Assembly: GCA_950295325.1 (NCBI GenBank)
Contig: OX485809.1
Coordinates: forward strand, 40,765,081 to 40,829,080
Length of the DNA: 64,000 nucleotides
Direction of reading: 5' to 3'
Source: Polytrichum commune
Lineage: Eukaryota; Streptophyta; Polytrichopsida; Polytrichales; Polytrichaceae
Part shown: piece by piece, positions 5,495 through 63,944 of the stretch
Position numbering within the stretch: the first letter of the stretch is position 1
Layout of the letters: the number at the start of each line of letters is the position of its first letter
Notes under the pieces: model-generated
Database searches by the model: none
What the model saw: only the letters and a program-made list of their open reading frames with translations
What the model was told of the DNA's origin: nothing
Program-made: the position numbers and the translations under genes

Positions 5495-5593
5495 AACAAT
5501 GAGAGGGAGAACGCCAAAACTTCAAAGTACAAGGATAAATTTGCATTTGCAATCCAATACGGAGCGTATTTGAGGAGCATTTGCAAATAGATC

Positions 5594-6008
5594 ATGAATT
5601 TAGAAGCCATAATACACATTGCTTTGCATAAGGTGACATTCGACATTTATGAGGTAATTTGTCCATGCAATGTGCGTTTGGGTGATGGTAGTGTGGTCGA
5701 AGCCATCGGAATGGGGTTAATTGTCGTTGGAGTTGAAAAGAGAGGCATAAGGAATAGAGTTCGCATAACAGATGTGCTTCACATGCCGAAGTTGCAAGCC
5801 AACTTGCTTTTAGTGAGCATGCTTTTGTCGAACAGGTTGAAGGTGCAATTTCTCGTAAACAAATGCATTGTGAGAGGTGCAAACGGTGAAATGTTTACAA
5901 TAGCTCGAGGTGAAGGGAATTTATACCAAACAACCTTCATTGAGGTACACAAAGTGGATGTGGCGAACTTTGTGCATTCACATACGGGAGGCGGTCTGGT
6001 GGAGCTTT
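5594..6008 (+). pseudogene. Copia protease and pre-integrase region, catalytic motif lost
   Basis: The frame contains VRLGDGSVVEAIGMG, RITDVLHMPKLQANLLLVSM and the GNLYQT segment typical of the copia aspartic protease and GAG-pre-integrase region. The expected catalytic Asp-Ser-Gly triplet near the start is replaced by Asn-Leu-Glu (IMNLEAI). The protease could therefore not work even if expressed. A TGA at 6008 ends the frame just before the integrase zinc domain. Confidence 0.82.
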
Positions 6009-6640
6009 GACATCGCCGACTTGGTCATTTGAATGTGAGGAGTGTGTATGCACTTTAAAGCATAGTAAGGGTTATAAACCTAGATAAAACCTCTCATTCG
6101 ACCTCTACATTTTTTTGCAAAATGTGCATGGAGGGTAAACAATATGCGGCAAAGTTGGGCAACGATGCGAAAAGACAAGCAACATACCCCTTAGAGATTG
6201 TGCATTTGGGTGTTTGTGGCCACATGAAGAACATCTCAGTGGGAGGGGCAAATTATTTTGTTATATTGTTGATATTTTTTTAGGAATGTGTGGGTTTATA
6301 TGATGAAATTCAAAGGAAAATGATTTGATAGATTTAAGGAGCTCCGAGTATTTGTAGAAATATAATCAAAGTACAAAATCCAGGCATTTGAGTGGATGAG
6401 CGGAGGGGGCTCCATTTTGAAAGATTTTGTTTTATGGAATGTGGCATTGAGAGCACGCCTCAAGATATTGGACTAGTAAAGTGTGCAAATCAAATTATTG
6501 TTGCAATGGAAAATTAAATGCTAGAAGCTCGAAAGCTTGAGAAATTGCTTTGGGCAGAGCGGTGGCAAATGCGGTTTATATACTAAACCGATGTCCAATG
6601 AGGGCCTTGTGCTCCGTTACACCTGAAGAAATATAAAGCA
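6009..6640 (+). pseudogene. Copia integrase, zinc domain and dead core
   Basis: HRRLGHLNVRSVYAL followed by FFCKMCMEGKQ is the H-H-C-C zinc domain. The core begins PLEIVHLGVCGHM, where the first catalytic Asp is Gly. Later, GIESTPQDIGLVKCANQII aligns with the segment that carries the third catalytic residue, here Lys instead of Glu. At least six stops or shifts interrupt it. This is an inactive relic. Confidence 0.75.
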
Positions 6641-10389: not shown

Positions 10390-10605
10390 CAGTGATCGGG
10401 GGGATTTTTGGGCAGAATCGGTTGAGATCCTAGTGTTTGCAAGTCCAACCGGTTACATGTTGACAGCCTCCGGTTTTCCTTTACTAAACTGGGGTATATT
10501 CTATAAACTCCTCTAAAATGATCCTGCAGTCTTGAACTTCAACCGGTTATTCCTCAAACTCAACCGGTTCATATGTAACTAACTGCCGGTTCTCCCCGAT
10601 CATTG
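10390..10605. mobile_element. hAT-MITE, CARTGATCGGGG family (copy 1)
   Basis: The 216-bp element starts CAGTGATCGGGG and ends CCCCGATCATTG. Flanking octamers TAACAAGG and AAACAGGG agree at 6 of 8 positions, a decayed 8-bp TSD. The interior carries three intact AACCGGTT octamers and degenerate ones near the ends, a pattern of subterminal repeats such as hAT transposases bind. There is no coding capacity. Other near-complete copies lie at 34659, 58097 and 58834. Confidence 0.85.
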
Positions 10606-11069
10606 AAACAGGGTCGGTGTGAAGACTAGTATATTATAAGTGCGCTCTTCCAATAGGCATTTTCTCCTTGTCAAAGTGCACAGTAATAAGTTCTTGGGAT
10701 ATGCTGACGAGCCATAGCATTTATGAGCCCGTGTCCCAAGCGAAAGTCCGTAGCGGAAATGCCTTTTGGAATTATTGCCCAGACAAAGCTGCACTTTTTC
10801 TTAGTATTCTTGCTCCATTCATCACCGTCACTGAGAACCTCCAGCTGTGCCTTGGAAAAGGAGGCATTGCATTCACATTCCAAGGTCGCTTCCAAGTTCC
10901 ACACGTGCACTCATTTGGGGGTTAAGGTAGATATGCCTAATTTAGTTGTTTATCTTGATCGGAGATCTATATTTGAGTGGTGGTATGTGGTTTGGTGTGG
11001 TTTCAAGAACAAATATCAAAAAGACATTTGTGTAAAAGAGAGTGGTATGCATGTTCCAAACATGATAAT

Positions 11070-14627: not shown

Positions 14628-14820
14628 CAAATCGATAAAGATAACCCGAAAGATGTCGGGATGTGATTGGTGCACTTGCCACTTGGAAACAATAGTATCT
14701 TACTATCTTCGTTCATTTCTGTTTTTTCTATTATAATTACCAATTTGCTAGCCTGCCACTGCCCCATTTTGTCTGTTTGTCCACAAACTAGTTCAGAGAA
14801 ACTAAACTAGACTCAATCAC

Positions 14821-15048
14821 TCAAACTCAACCGGTTCATTTGAAACTAACTCGAATTCAAGAAGTTGGAGAGTGCCGCTGGAACAATCTCCTCCTGCAAT
14901 CTTGAACTTCAACAAGTGTTTTCTCAAACTCAACCGGTTCATTTGAAACTAACTCGAATTCAAGAAGTTGAAGAGTGCCGCTGGAACAATCTTCTCTTGC
15001 AATCTTGAACTTCAACAGGTGTTTTCTCAAACTCAACCGGTTCATTTG
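14821..15048. repeat. 103-bp tandem array, derived from the CARTGATCGGGG MITE
   Basis: Units start at 14821, 14924 and 15027 with TCAAACTCAACCGGTTCATT. That block and the following AACTAACT match the right end of the CARTGATCGGGG hAT-MITE, and CTTGAACTTCAAC matches its interior. About 2.2 units are present, so one hAT element carries an amplified piece of another family. Confidence 0.85.
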
Positions 15049-15059
15049 ACGACTGCAAT

Positions 15060-26128: not shown

Positions 26129-26446
26129 AAGCTCCTTCATGAACCCATCTCTTTACTTTCTAATTACATAAAACTAGTTCCTTCATAAACCCAGCTCCTT
26201 CATAAACCCAGCTTCTTAGCTTCTAACTAAACAAACCCAGCTCCTTCATAAACCCAGCTCCTTCATGAACCCAGCTCCTTAGCTTCTAACTAAACAAACT
26301 CAGGTCCTTCATAAACCCAGCTCTTTACTTTCTAACTAAACAAACCCAGCTCCTTCATAAACCCAGCTCCTTCATGAACCCAGCTCCTTAGCTTCTAACT
26401 AAACAAACCCAGGTCCTTCATAAACCCAGCTCTTTCATGAACCCAC
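26129..26446. repeat. Composite tandem array, 17-bp unit with 109-bp higher-order period
   Basis: The 17-bp core CCTTCATRAACCCAGCT repeats, broken by spacers of type TAGCTTCTAACTAAACAAA. Spacers ending ACAAAC fall at 26231, 26294, 26340 and 26403, alternating 63 and 46 bp, so a 109-bp higher-order unit has been duplicated. Confidence 0.9.
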
Positions 26447-34658: not shown

Positions 34659-34884
34659 CAGTGATTGAGGAGATTTTTGGGCATAACCGGTTGAGATCCT
34701 AGGGCTTGCAAGTCCAACCGGTTATATGTTGACATCCTCCGGTTTTCCTTTATTGAACTGGGGTATATTCTATAAATTCCTCTAAAATGATCGGTAATTT
34801 CCATGCAGTCTCGAACTTCAACCGGTTATTTATCAAACTCAACCGGTTCATTTGTAACTAACTGCCGGTTCTCCCCGATCATTG
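34659..34884. mobile_element. hAT-MITE, CARTGATCGGGG family (copy 2), nested
   Basis: Starts CAGTGATTGAGGAG and ends CTCCCCGATCATTG, 226 bp. Flanking octamers TCCCCGAC and TCCCAGAC agree at 7 of 8. It contains four AACCGGTT octamers. It interrupts the right arm of the large inverted repeat: the arm sequence on its two sides is continuous in the left arm. The MITE is therefore younger than the foldback element. Confidence 0.93.
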
Positions 34885-38844: not shown

Positions 38845-39343
38845 GGGCCACTTCACACACGAGACTGAGAGCCCAAGACCATTACACTTCAAGCACTCTC
38901 ATTGGTGGAAAAGGCGGAGCCAGTCCAAGTTCGCTTCACACTACACTTGAGGGACCAACGGAGCATGTGGATGCAAGATGGGTGTACAGTCTACACGGAC
39001 TCCTACATGGCATCGAATGGATCACGTGTCATGGTCACTTGGATTATTTTCAAAAACCACTTCTTGGAGGTAAACCCAATACAAAACCGGGAGACCATGG
39101 CACTCCAAACGCTCACAACCTTCGATTTATTCTATGTGATCATGTGTGAAGACTCGCATGAATAGAAATTCATTGAAATAGCATTTGGTTGAGGACCCAG
39201 TCACATATGGCTTCACACTACACTTGAGGGTCCGTGAGCACACTACATGATTTTGAAGGTGTGTTGGGATGGCCTTTGGACACTTTCTTTTGGGCTCTCA
39301 CAATTACATGGTCACGGCTCTTGGCTCGTGTGTGAAGTGGTCC
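38845..39343. mobile_element. PIF/Harbinger (Tourist-like) MITE, TSD TTA
   Basis: Ends GGGCCACTTCACACACGAG and, inward from the right, GGACCACTTCACACACGAG form a 19-bp TIR with one mismatch. TTA flanks both sides (38842-38844 and 39344-39346). The subterminal GGTCACGGCTCTTGG block is shared with the 17722 element, so the two families are related. The 499-bp element contains TTCACACTACACTTGAGGG twice (about 38935-38954 and 39209-39228). It is non-coding. Confidence 0.94.
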
Positions 39344-39409
39344 TTAGTAGGGGTTACATTCATGGGGGGATTTTGCTTTCTGCGGTGAATTTGGATCATG
39401 TTCGGAGTA

Positions 39410-54437: not shown

Positions 54438-54835
54438 CATTTAGTGTACCATGATGGCTATCTTGAATGTACTTATGGGAAGGCACAAATGGTGCTTATC
54501 CTCATTGCATTATCCCCTAAGCTTCTAAGAGGCCTTGTCCAAGCCTTCGCATGCATAATATCGTGAATTTGAGCTACATACGTTCATGTTTAGTCAATTA
54601 TGTCAAAAGTGACCCAATCTAAAATCATTTCAAATCGGTTGACAACCCTAATGTTTTTGTTTTTTCCTCGACATAAAATAGTGCACAAAACAAAGCACAA
54701 AATCCAAAATTTGGAAACTATGTTCTTTGAACTTGATGAAATTGTGTATTTAGCTGTAAATGTAGCCCCTTGGTCCTCTAAGGATTAATGAGCAAGCACA
54801 TTACTTACTAGCCCTATCCAATGAATAGGAAGTAC

Positions 54836-55255
54836 CGATTGCTGGTTACAAATGAACCAGTTGAGTTTGAGAAACAAGTGGTTAAAATTCAAAACCTCAT
54901 GAAAATCACCAATCATTTTGGAGGAATTCATAGACTATAGCCTTGCCCACACCTACTAGTGGTCATAGCCAGTGGATGACTTCCACCAGTTGGGGGCACT
55001 TCATTGTTGCTTTTAGCTAGCGACTAGATGTAATGTACTCAATTTTGAGCTTTTTCTAGCTAAAAGCAACGAAAAGGTGGCCCCCTAATGCTGGGAACCA
55101 CCCACTGGCTCTGACCACCAACAAGTAGGAGTAGAGCATATTTCCCCCAATTCAATAAAGAAAAACCGAAAGATGTCAACATGGAACTTGTTGGACTATG
55201 AAACATTAGGATCTCCACCGACTAGCTTAAGCACAAAAACCCCCTGAACATTGAT
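54836..55255. mobile_element. Degenerate hAT-MITE (CARTGATCGGGG family) split by another foldback
   Basis: The left half (54836-54950) follows the family consensus from near the left end: GGTTACAAATGAACCAGTTG, then AATCATTTTGGAGGAATT. The right half resumes near 55138 with CCCCCAATTCAATAAAG, GATGTCAACATGG and GGATCTCCACCG. The two halves are separated by a foldback element. Both termini and most AACCGGTT sites are mutated, so this is an old copy. Confidence 0.75.
54952..55129. mobile_element. Foldback MITE nested in the degenerate hAT-MITE
   Basis: CCTACTAGTGGTCATAGCC and GTTGCTTTTAGCTA pair with the right-hand CCTACTTGTTGGTGGTCAGA and GTTGCTTTTAGCTA, giving arms of about 70 bp around a short AT-rich centre. 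No exact TSD could be fixed, so the superfamily is unknown. Confidence 0.75.
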
Positions 55256-56880: not shown

Positions 56881-57264
56881 ATATAACATAGTGCCGTGTG
56901 TGTGTGGGTGGATGGTTAGCGTGGGTCACACTAATTTTCTACACAAGGTGGAATTAGTGTGGGGTCCAAGACTCCCCGGATCTTCCCTTAAGTGTCTAAG
57001 AAGATTCCCGACCAACACATTGAACGTTAGTTGTAGGATGAAAGTAGCGTCAAATGAATATTCATCCACGCTAGTTTTCTAGAACAACAATCAACCAATT
57101 CATTTGTAACTACACTAAGTAGTCGTGTCATTGTGGGCAAGAATAAAATTTTAGGGCCCGTGATATTTCTCATGATGAAAATTAATATGGGTCACATTAA
57201 AATCAACACCAACAGTAAATTTATAGTAGAAAATTAGTGTGGTCCACATCATGATTACGTTTGA

Positions 57265-57440
57265 AAAGTAGCCGGTTGAGTTCAAGACTTCAAGAAGATT
57301 GCCAATCTTCTTTGAGGAATCCATAGCATGTTCCCCACTTTTGATAAAGAAACAGCCGGAAGATGTCAACATGGAATTGGTGGGACTCGGAAACACTAGG
57401 CTAGCATCGACCCTTTCTGCCCAAAAACCTCCCTGGATAT
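57265..57440. mobile_element. Degenerate hAT-MITE, CARTGATCGGGG family
   Basis: GCCGGTTGAGTTCAAGACTT, GATAAAGAAACAGCCGGAAG, ATGTCAACATGGAATTGG, AAACACTAGG and TTCTGCCCAAAAACCTCCC follow the family consensus in order, but the left end is deleted and the right end mutated. The MULE-type MITE at 57470 starts about 30 bp after it. Confidence 0.7.
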
Positions 57441-58096: not shown

Positions 58097-58329
58097 CAAT
58101 GATCGGGGAGAACCGGCAGTTAGTTACAAATGAACCGGTGGAATTGGGGAAAGAACCGGTTGAAGTTCAAGAGTGCAGGAAAATTACCCATCATTTTAGA
58201 GGAATTTGTTGAAGAATATACCCCGATTTAATGAAGGAAAAGCGGAGGATGTCCTCTAACATGTAACCGGTTGGACTTTCAAACACTCGGATCTCGACCA
58301 ATTGTGCCCTAAAATCCCCCCGACCACTG
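58097..58329. mobile_element. hAT-MITE, CARTGATCGGGG family (copy 3)
   Basis: Starts CAATGATCGGGGAGAACCGG and ends CCCCCGACCACTG, 233 bp, with the opposite orientation to copies 1 and 2. Flanking octamers GCTTCGCC and GCTTCGTC agree at 7 of 8. ACCGGTT-type sites are mostly retained. Confidence 0.93.
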
Positions 58330-58379
58330 GCTTCGTCCACGATGGAGGATAAGTTTAGCACGCATCCCTAGCCCGCCCC

Positions 58380-58753: not shown

Positions 58754-59690
58754 GGAAGAAATATTGGGTTCTCTTTTTAATGAAGGGGGAGAACCGGCTG
58801 TTGCACTGCTTATCCCAGTGACTGAGTGAGTGTCAATGATCGGGGAGAACCGGCAGTTAGTTACAAATGAACCGGTTGAGTTTGAGAAATAACCGGTTGA
58901 AGTTCAAGACTTCAGGAAAATTACCGATCATTTTAGAGGAATTTGTAGAATATACCCCAATTTAATGAAGGAAAACTGAAGGATGTCAATATGTAACCGG
59001 TTAGACTTGCAAACACTAGGATCTCTACCAATTATGCCCAAAAATCTCCCCGATCACTGGTGAGTGTGTGCGTGCTACTACCTATTTGGAGTGGGGTTAT
59101 ATGCAGTGCAAGAACGGCGGAGTTCGACTTTGTAGTCTACAAAGTTCAGTAGGTTGTTTGGACATTAGAAGAACATGCACTTTGACGTTGGCTTGATGAA
59201 ATATTACATTCTCGTCAAGTGGTTCTAGCAATGTGTAATTTCGAATAGTGACACGCATATCGGGATGATCAGTGTAGGTCCGCATGAACTGGCTGCGTTC
59301 GAGAAAAGTAGCGATTGTTTGAGAGGAATATATATACTTGGAAGAAATTTTGGGTTCTCTTTTTTAATGAAGGGGGAGAAATGGCTGTTGCACGGATTAT
59401 CCCAGTGAGTGAGTGAGTGCGTGCGTGCTACTACCTATTTGGAGTGGAGTTATATGCAGTGCAAGAATGGCGGAGTTCGACTTTGTAGTCTACAAAGTTC
59501 AATAGGTTGTTTGGACATTAGAGGAACATGCACTTTGACGTTGGCTCGATGAAATATTACATTCTCGTCAAGTAGTTCTAGCAATGCGTAGCTTCGAATA
59601 GTGACATGCTTATGGGGATGATCAGTGTAGTTACGCATGAGCCGGTTGCGTTTGAGAAAAGTAGCGATTGTTTGAGAGGAATATATGTGG
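58754..59690. repeat. ~350-bp tandem duplication, first copy holding a hAT-MITE
   Basis: Unit 1 (58754-59338, including the MITE) and unit 2 (59339 to about 59690) share GGAAGAAAT(A/T)TTGGGTT, GAAGGGGGAGAA, TGCTACTACCTATTTGGAGT, AGTTCGACTTTGTAGTC and TAGCGATTGTTTGAGAGGA. Without the 226-bp MITE and its TSD, both units are about 350 bp. Unit 2 has GAGTGAGTGCGTGCG where unit 1 has the MITE. Confidence 0.93.
58834..59059. mobile_element. hAT-MITE, CARTGATCGGGG family (copy 4), perfect TSD
   Basis: Starts CAATGATCGGGGAGAACCGG, ends CTCCCCGATCACTG, 226 bp. The 8-bp TSD GTGAGTGT is identical on both sides (58826-58833 and 59060-59067). It is the least mutated copy in the window. The unfilled paralogous site lies in unit 2 of the tandem duplication, near 59408-59425. 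Confidence 0.96.
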
Positions 59691-59800
59691 AATATGCCTC
59701 CCATTAGTAAGGAAAACCGAAAGACCACAACATGGAACCACCAGTTCGACTTGGAAGAGGGTGTCGACCGGTTCTGCCCAAAAACCTCCCGGGACATTGC
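59636..59800. mobile_element. Degenerate hAT-MITE, CARTGATCGGGG family
   Basis: GAGCCGGTTGCGTTTGAGAA, TAGTAAGGAAAACCGAAAGA, AACATGGAACC and CCGGTTCTGCCCAAAAACC are in consensus order, with a deletion after the first block. Unit 1 has the first block too (59286-59325), so this MITE was present before the tandem duplication and is older than copy 4. Confidence 0.65.
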
Positions 59801-60149
59801 TTTCCTTGCAGTGAATATCGAGGAAAGGGAATATATATATACACACGTAGCTGTTTCCAAGGATGCTTTATGATGCTTACTTGAGTTTGAGCCCCACTAC
59901 CATCGCCCGAGGTGAATGTTGATTATTCAATGGTGTGATTCTTGTTATTTTTAGATGATTTGACCCCATAATCAAAAACAAGGATGTTGAATTAGACAAG
60001 CGGGACTGAGCGGGGATTAGTTTATCACAAATATGTGTGGGTCATGGTTTTTCTAAACTCCTTTGTACCTCTGTAATGTTGGTGGGGGGTCCAACCCAAA
60101 GAGGTGGGGTGTTTAGCCCTAGCCAACATGCTCATCCTTATGGTTGTAA

Positions 60150-62700: not shown

Positions 62701-63233
62701 AATTAGAGCGCAATAAGTCATCAATATACCTAGTTGAAAGTTTGGGAGATGTCATAGTAATTTGTAAAGTAAAGCAAATGAAATTGTGGGATAGGTCCCA
62801 AACCTTGAGTTTCTGAGAATTAACACAAAGTCACCCAAGTTTTCTTAATGCTTAAACTACCAAGCACACAAAGTGGTGTCAAGCTATTGAAAATTGGCTT
62901 TCTAGCTTGTCCAAGGGTGAGTGGGCCAAGCTAGCCTTGCATAGGCTAATTGGGGATTTAGGACAATGGGTCCCATGTGCATACCCTACTTTAAATCTTA
63001 TAATTCTCTCAAAGTTTGAGAGGTGAAAAGAAGAGGTCCCCAAAGTTTCACCTAACTTTTAAAATAAGCTCCAACACACAACGAGCTAATGAGCTCTTAA
63101 TATAAAGTTGTATGAAAGAAACATTGAACCCACGGTTTTGTCCCTATTTGAGGGACTTTACGGATAAATCTATCTTTAGCCTGAAAATTATTTTCAAAGA
63201 CATGATATCAATGTTGGAAGTAACTTTGTATTA

Positions 63234-63311
63234 GGTAATTGTTTTATTGGAACCGGTTATCGGTGCAGAACCGGTTCTGCACCGATAACCGGTTCCAATA
63301 AAACAATTACC
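63234..63311. repeat. 78-bp perfect palindrome centred on AACCGGTT
   Basis: Each 39-bp arm reads GGTAATTGTTTTATTGG, AACCGGTTATC, GGTGCAGAACC, and the other half is its exact complement with no spacer. The centre falls between 63272 and 63273. It contains three AACCGGTT octamers. Absence of any mismatch in otherwise decayed DNA suggests a recent origin or active homogenisation. Confidence 0.97.
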
Positions 63312-63313
63312 GG

Positions 63314-63497
63314 ACGTAACCGGTTGGCCGCTTTGTTGAGCCGCACAGGTGACCTAAACAGTGGGTCACCTGTCGTCATATCCGATTTAGATGATCATAA
63401 CCGGCTGGGATGTCGAGGTTATCGTCTGCAAACCTGTGTTCTCAGAGCCAATCGTGTAGTGCCACCTCGGCGAAACAAAGAAGCCAACCGGTTACGT
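63314..63497. other. GC-richer cargo bounded by 15-bp inverted repeats
   Basis: ACGTAACCGGTTGGC at 63314-63328 and its exact complement at 63483-63497 bracket 184 bp of distinctly GC-richer sequence. Inside is a hairpin ACAGGTGACC/GGTCACCTGT with a short loop near 63346-63375. A frame without ATG (63324-63509) runs through it with Arg-rich, protein-like composition, but no domain is recognised. It may be a tiny nested MITE; no TSD was seen. Confidence 0.6.
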
Positions 63498-63944
63498 AGA
63501 CGAAGTTAAGTGTATACAATAGAGTTAAAGTCCCTCAAAGAGGGATGAAACTGTGGGTTTGATGCATCTTCGAGAAAGCTTTCTATCAAGAGCTTGTTAG
63601 CACATGGTGTATCGGAGCCTATTTTGAAACTTGGGTAACTTTTGAGACCTCCTTTTTCCACCTCTCGAAATTTGTGAAAATTTTAGGATTTAAAAAAGGA
63701 TATGTGCATGGGACTTGTTGTCCTAAATCCCGGATTAGCTTATGCAAGGGTAGTTTGGCCCACCTATCCTAAGTAAAACAAGTTAGAGATAAAATTATTA
63801 ATAATCCGTGACCACTCTTTATGTTTGATAATTTAAACATTAAAAATTTTGGACAACTTTGTGTTAATTTTCATAAACTCAAGGTTTGAGACTAAACCCA
63901 TGATTTCATCTGCTTTACTGTACAAGTAACTCCAGTACAGTAGT

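Follow-up and report, generated by a model that had tools for sequence, protein, structure and literature searches.

The arms-and-loop structure at 62757-63930 of the window (the whole 64,000-nucleotide stretch analysed here, C7:40765081-40829080) is an ordinary nesting of three insertions: two old copies of one repeat, which form the arms, and a young inner element lodged between them. In the best reading of the locus, which we consider probable, two old and independent MITEs frame a nested, young, non-autonomous rolling-circle (HUH-type) element. The inner element, a separate entity far younger than the arms, belongs to a dispersed, young family with fixed ends that can form two large hairpins, the second of which is closed by an asymmetric inverted repeat. 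Relatives were searched for in the window's own genome (408 Mb in 64 contigs, seven of these of 42-78 Mb), and the parts of the locus are as follows.

62755..63172, + strand: left arm, a complete old copy of MITE-B (a repeat of about 420 bp) with terminal inverted repeats TAGAGTTATYYGTAAAGT, from genome matches and an alignment of 30 copies
63173..63228, no strand: left spacer remnant between the MITE-B copies, ending in the target ...TTTG, from the boundaries of MITE-B and the inner element
63229..63496, + strand (orientation arbitrary): young non-autonomous element TATTAGG...TTACG, 268 bp, from dispersed copies and the sharp ends of 51 aligned copies
63234..63311, no strand: hairpin HP1, a 78-bp perfect palindrome beginning 5 bp from the element end
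63315..63337, + strand: inner arm of the asymmetric inverted repeat, CGTAACCGGTTGGCCGCTTTGTT, whose initial 14 bp are perfectly paired inside the element in the window copy
63345..63373, no strand: small internal hairpin ACAGGTGACC...GGTCACCTGT, from the fold of the inner segment
63474..63496, - strand: terminal arm of that asymmetric repeat, extending to the opposite end of the element
63497..63519, no strand: right spacer remnant between the MITE-B copies, from the same boundaries as the left one
63520..63934, - strand: right arm, a second MITE-B copy in opposite orientation with its own terminal ATAGAGTT end, from the inverted match of 75.8%, with ends read from fetched copies and the 30-copy alignment

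The features that the first-pass annotation reported at this position are not due to chance. Its two inverted arms of about 400 bp are recovered as a match between 62756-63160 and 63526-63931, with 75.8% identity over 409 aligned columns (E 1.85e-78), and extend to the full copies listed above. The palindrome (2 x 39 bp, without spacer), the 184-bp segment at 63314-63497 flanked by perfect 15-bp inverted repeats, in which pairing continues at 11 of the next 15 bases, and the five AACCGGTT octamers of the loop (starting at 63251, 63269, 63287, 63318, and 63486) are likewise all present in the sequence, two of the octamers being mirror copies inside the palindrome and two forming the arms of one inverted repeat. 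The sharply different composition claimed for the loop is also borne out: positions 63234-63501 have a GC content of 0.50 and 20 CpG, with a CpG O/E of 1.20; the arms have 0.13 and 0.40, and the window as a whole 0.47. A CpG count as high occurs in one of 952 windows of 268 bp, that one overlapping the loop segment.

The window as a whole contains 21 AACCGGTT octamers, compared to 0.78 expected from base composition, indicating that the octamer is also frequent in another of its repeats. The second MITE family of the window, of about 225 bp with ends CARTGATCGGGGAGA (10390-10609, 34659-34884, 58097-58330, and 58837-59061, with fragments near 14820-15049, 54819-55253, 57259-57433, and 59623-59803), carries several copies of AACCGGTT, and its ATGTAACCGGTTGGA resembles the ACGTAACCGGTTGGC of the loop, a likeness with seven window matches at up to three mismatches, two of them the loop's own, against 0.49 expected. 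Inspected by eye, four copies of this family present a CARTG-type TIR and 8-bp target duplications (8/8, 7/8, 7/8, and 6/8), which we take to be the marks of hAT elements. Other repeats in the window include a 103-bp tandem array of 2.2 copies at 14820-15049, which takes in a portion of the hAT-like MITE, irregular tandem arrays at 26130-26445 built of AAACCCAGCTCCTTCAT units (periods of 17, 46, 63, and 109), and a retrotransposon pol polyprotein fragment at 5591-6010 (Pol_BBD, E 3e-11).

The search for the arms elsewhere in the genome, suggested in the first-pass annotation, places them in an old repeat family. With 40 of 2593 first-look candidates scored, the left arm matches at least 39 other genomic places at 78-84% identity, covering the 487-bp query from positions 1-42 to 385-437, and the alignment of 30 MITE-B copies reveals common ends, the terminal inverted repeats TAGAGTTATYYGTAAAGT and a length of about 420 bp, with no consistent duplication visible by eye around the copies. 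In a comparison including seven other MITE-B copies, the two arms are 77.0% identical to each other, while identity to the same seven is 80.9-83.5% for the left arm and 78.1-82.5% for the right; the seven were picked for closeness to the left arm, and the right arm is still nearer to each of them than to the left arm. Since each arm is nearer to all seven other copies than to its partner, the arms are best read as independent insertions rather than as an inverted duplication. They differ by 62 transitions and 30 transversions, a K2P distance of 0.28. At all seven of the other arm loci fetched with 1.5-kb flanks there is a single MITE-B copy, compared to two at the window locus. The target-site duplication that the first-pass annotation had proposed to look for was not found in scans of the locus, either outside the arms or around the loop. 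The two MITE-B copies inserted independently about 79 bp apart and in opposite orientation, and the 268-bp element entered the spacer later, so that the earlier remark that nothing familiar explains the nesting was overstated: nested insertion does. A second inverted MITE-B pair, with a different spacer of about 180 bp, lies at C3:28092282-28093304 (L107, C3:28092100-28093500). Arm copies are also found about 0.6-1.1 kb from an inner element at L009 and at L047/L092 (C1:46257957, C1:46259399). A special link between arm and inner element at the first of these loci (C3:7545218-7546484, about 600 bp apart) was considered and set aside as probably a reporting effect, because the search lists only sequence near scored candidates.

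The loop is also found without the arms. A query covering both loop and arms locates the loop in at least 39 other places at 93-97% identity (a lower bound, with 40 of 2960 first-look candidates scored), the matches starting at query positions 458-473 and ending at 738-756, and an arm match lies near only one of them. The family is marked by TATTAGG and a hairpin at the left and by ...CCAACCGGTTACG at the right. Its commoner 24-bp left end, from which the window copy differs by one base, occurs 137 times in the genome, and its commoner 20-bp right-end motif, from which the window copy also differs, occurs 303 times, with no occurrence of either control (a reversed pattern for the left end); among 100 places listed, the right-end motif is often present twice per element because it is an inverted repeat. 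Both ends are visible in 80 of 81 loci, the window copy among them and L045 being the exception. End-to-end alignment with L011 was obtained for 51 of the 81, and in the remaining 30 the first hairpin is longer in most and shorter in a few. In the 51 aligned copies, the termini TATTAGG... and ...TTACG are not inverted repeats of each other. The extent of the mobile loop is corrected to 63229-63496. At L061 (C2:16796111-16798474), two long-form inner elements with equal match scores share one orientation at a distance of 893 bp.

The youth of this family is apparent in its divergence, assessed only on the 20 full copies among those picked by similarity to the window copy, since the left ends of L029-L088 were selected by exact pattern and mutation counts there are biased. 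These 20 copies of 270 bp hold 70 differences from their majority sequence, an average of 1.3%; the window copy has nine. The earlier suggestion that the loop is younger or selectively maintained therefore stands in its first part, and in so young a family selection is not a necessary reason for the perfect palindrome. The loop family matches no described family exactly. A Pfam search with the 91-aa open frame that crosses the loop finds nothing up to E 10, and capture of a known gene was dropped as an explanation on that basis. Rfam yields no RNA match in the window at gathering scores, plasmid records have no similarity to the sequence queried, and the exact end of the window copy is absent from viral contigs.

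As single-stranded DNA, HP1 folds at -44.7 kcal/mol, with a z of -18.0 (-15.0 in the 3'-hairpin test). The asymmetric inverted repeat, 23 bp long in the majority sequence of the 20 copies, has one arm of about 23 bp at one terminus and its reverse-oriented partner 86 bp from the other, just inside the terminal hairpin. The perfect palindrome is characteristic of the family: among the 20 closest copies, it lacks any mismatch in 11 and has one or two mismatches in eight, L023 being left out of the evaluation for an indel, and youth alone could account for this perfection. HP1 varies in length across the family: in 83 rows, with one copy counted twice, it measures 78 bp in 30, 126-129 bp in 20, 60 bp in 14 and some other length in 15, and is undefined in four. 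The perfect palindrome of the window is a member of the 78-bp class, in which 14 of the 30 hairpins have no mismatch. Loss of the tip from a hairpin could give rise to shorter masters that are then re-amplified, a process that would account for the discrete lengths of 126-129, 78, and 60 bp. The window copy and L010 share a paired change, C14T with G79A, from a majority of C and G, which keeps the palindrome perfect; either membership in a common subfamily or conversion inside the hairpin would account for it.

To look for empty sites, the joined flanks of the 51 loci were set against the window and every fetched locus, and at eight of the 51 (L012, L030, L035, L038, L069, L070, L087, and L088) at least one paralogue reads cleanly through ...TG/flank, with no duplication at any. 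The clearest case is L087, with four paralogues (window 39062-39348, L071, L002, and L072), where TCACATATG/ACTTCAC around the insertion compares to TCACATATG/GCTTCAC in the element-free paralogue at 39062-39348 of the window. Since the empty sites carry the TG, the TG beside the element is target and the element proper is TATTAGG...TTACG; the TG at 63227-63228 of the window copy is assigned to the target from these empty sites at other loci. The TG is missing from some paralogues of L012 and L035. Of the eight clean loci, four fall within copies of a single hAT-like MITE, with L069 and L070 at the identical place in it. L022, L078, and L080 fit poorly with clean insertion after TG, the paralogues of L022 and L080 being mostly without TG and L078 having additional bases. 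Matches for L026, L027, L072, and L085 are ambiguous, L016 and L036 matched only themselves, and no spanning paralogue was found for 34 of the 51 loci among the window and the fetched loci. The left-flank base directly before the TG is A in 45 of the 51 copies and T in the other 6, with T one base earlier in 38, and flank and TG together read TATG in 34; the base on the right flank is T in 24, A in 19, G in 5, and C in 3. The TG was imposed by the search pattern in L029-L088, and all 21 copies picked by similarity, where it was not imposed, start with TGTATT. The last four bases of the element are TACG in all 51 end-to-end copies, L028, which ends in TATG, falling outside the filter. At the eight testable loci, insertion took place without duplication and after TG, usually TATG.

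Non-inverted termini, the lack of a duplication, a short fixed target and a strong hairpin together point to single-strand transposition of the HUH type. We infer that the inner element moved as single-stranded DNA by means of a borrowed HUH-type (rolling-circle) enzyme, most plausibly the RepHel protein of a Helitron. In the proposed mechanism, the enzyme would nick 3' of TAYG on both sides, at the TATG of the target or left flank and at the TACG that forms the element's own right end, with HP1 marking one end of the element and the inverted repeat fixing the other. No transposition intermediate of the inner element was seen.

The genome contains 34 matches to Helitron_like_N, of which 33 lie over the curated cut-off, and its RepHel genes include the following.

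L127:3777-7195, L140:3576-7940, and L128-L139: Helitron RepHel genes, with motifs YELQ/YEIQ..RGS.HAH... and YWSYYLLKYAMKxEPHGPI

Motifs were read in 13 of the Helitron_like_N loci, and those readable (eight HUH-type and 11 KYxxK stretches in 12 short loci, plus L127) are all of one type, which we take to be unlike the usual plant Helitron protein. A PDB search with the first piece of L127 retrieves Helraiser (E 8.6e-06), and one with the second piece has no Helraiser match up to E 10. L127 and L140, the one Helitron pair compared, have no match to the ends of the inner family. They share a 187-bp stretch, a 4.4 kb coding region and more short stretches of up to 98 bp, none of which resembles the loop family, and the last of them, of 98 bp, recurs at many genomic places. 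An autonomous element with the ends of the family was not found among the loci with unpaired right ends or in the left-end-only copy. At the nine loci with an unpaired right-end motif, the repeat arms lie close together as in short copies, with the left end out of view in four (L099, L100, L101, and L104), and the left-end-only copy (L045/L089) has no right end within the 9.4 kb fetched beyond; a frame in L089 appears to resemble a plant cytosolic aldolase, which would point to a land plant as host.

Several other explanations can be weighed against this reading. Treating the whole locus as one foldback transposon, of the MULE or FB type, with arms of about 400 bp and a cargo loop, as the first-pass annotation did, would suit the nesting of arms and loop in the window and the other inverted MITE-B pair on C3, with its different spacer. 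Such an element is hardly credible, given that the arms are less alike than either is to the seven other copies, that they occur singly at all seven flanked loci and that the loop family occurs without them. For the inner element itself, an origin as a normal cut-and-paste MITE with target duplications that decayed or went unrecognised is unlikely. Its small size, dispersal and inverted repeats are those of a MITE, the hAT-like MITE of the window, with its 8-bp duplications, contains the same octamer in a similar context, and three loci depart from clean empty sites; nevertheless, its two ends do not form an inverted repeat with each other, no duplication is present at the eight empty-site loci, and the 20 closest copies, at an average of 1.3% from their majority, are too young for duplications to have decayed.

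Mobilization by a site-specific recombinase, either a Crypton-type tyrosine or an IS607-type serine enzyme, would require no TIR and leave no duplication, and the resemblance of the right end TACG to the target TATG is what recombination at a short shared core would produce. We regard it as improbable to about the same degree as the cut-and-paste MITE: large hairpins are, to our knowledge, not expected of such a mechanism, and DUF3504 (PF12012) has no match in the genome, a weak point, as the control genomes have none either. Single-strand transposition of the IS200/IS605 type by a Y1 enzyme shares with the inner element a hairpin at one end, the lack of duplication and insertion 3' of a short fixed target, and yet it is very improbable here, as Y1_Tnp (PF01797) has no match in this genome and is matched in five of 14 control genomes. 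A non-autonomous rolling-circle element nested between two older MITEs is the reading that we favor. It is possible, although we hold it to be rather doubtful, that the inner family represents an undescribed group of plant single-strand-DNA transposons, with double hairpins, precise insertion after TAYG, a HUH enzyme (RepHel or other) with end rules of neither Helitron1 nor Helitron2, and hairpins that are shortened stepwise and re-amplified.

The analysis does away with a spurious foldback element and offers a testable case in its place. The inner family is unusual, young and well-bounded, with a testable mechanism, and its many clean-ended copies, some with empty sites, constitute a natural experiment on how a non-autonomous rolling-circle element defines its ends and target. 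It also bears on the persistence and shortening of very long palindromes in a eukaryotic genome, and identification of the partner enzyme would allow direct tests of the TAYG nick rule and of whether the hairpin is needed.

Bacterial REP/REPIN and IS200/IS605 elements have palindromic ends and a fixed flanking tetranucleotide, as the inner element does, but the latter resides in a eukaryotic genome with no match to a Y1 transposase. With canonical Helitrons (Helitron1) it shares the lack of TIR and duplication and a hairpin near one end, while lacking their 5'-TC/CTRR-3' ends and insertion between A and T, and its hairpin is far larger. Helitron2 elements are described as having terminal inverted repeats in an asymmetric arrangement, fixed target bases and, beyond the subterminal repeat, a hairpin at that end, with most short non-autonomous members lacking a target duplication (PMC3627910, PMC5148889), and the inner element resembles these in its asymmetric repeats, lack of duplication, fixed target bases and terminal hairpin, HP1 lying 3 bp beyond the inner repeat and 5 bp from the end. 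Compared to Helitron2 as described there, however, its hairpin is distinctive at 78-129 bp in most copies, its inner repeat lies 86 bp from the hairpin end instead of about 20-30 bp, its repeats measure about 23 bp instead of 8-15 bp, its target is (TA)TG instead of TTTT, the terminal repeat itself forms no hairpin, and a RepHel with matching ends was not found in the one Helitron pair compared. The 5' hairpin that Helitron2 forms from the terminal repeat and downstream bases is absent from the window copy (z of +1.04 and +0.88 for 60- and 80-nt folds), and since the distances and target differ as well, the inner element is not filed as Helitron2. Non-autonomous Helentrons of the HINE/DINE-1 type (PMC4067079) differ in inserting in T-rich DNA and in having repeats of 12-15 bp and a palindrome of 5-10 bp. 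Like the inner element, they are short, dispersed and non-coding, carry subterminal inverted repeats as well as a palindrome close to one end, and have empty sites that are unmodified. The inner element would work like a non-autonomous rolling-circle element.
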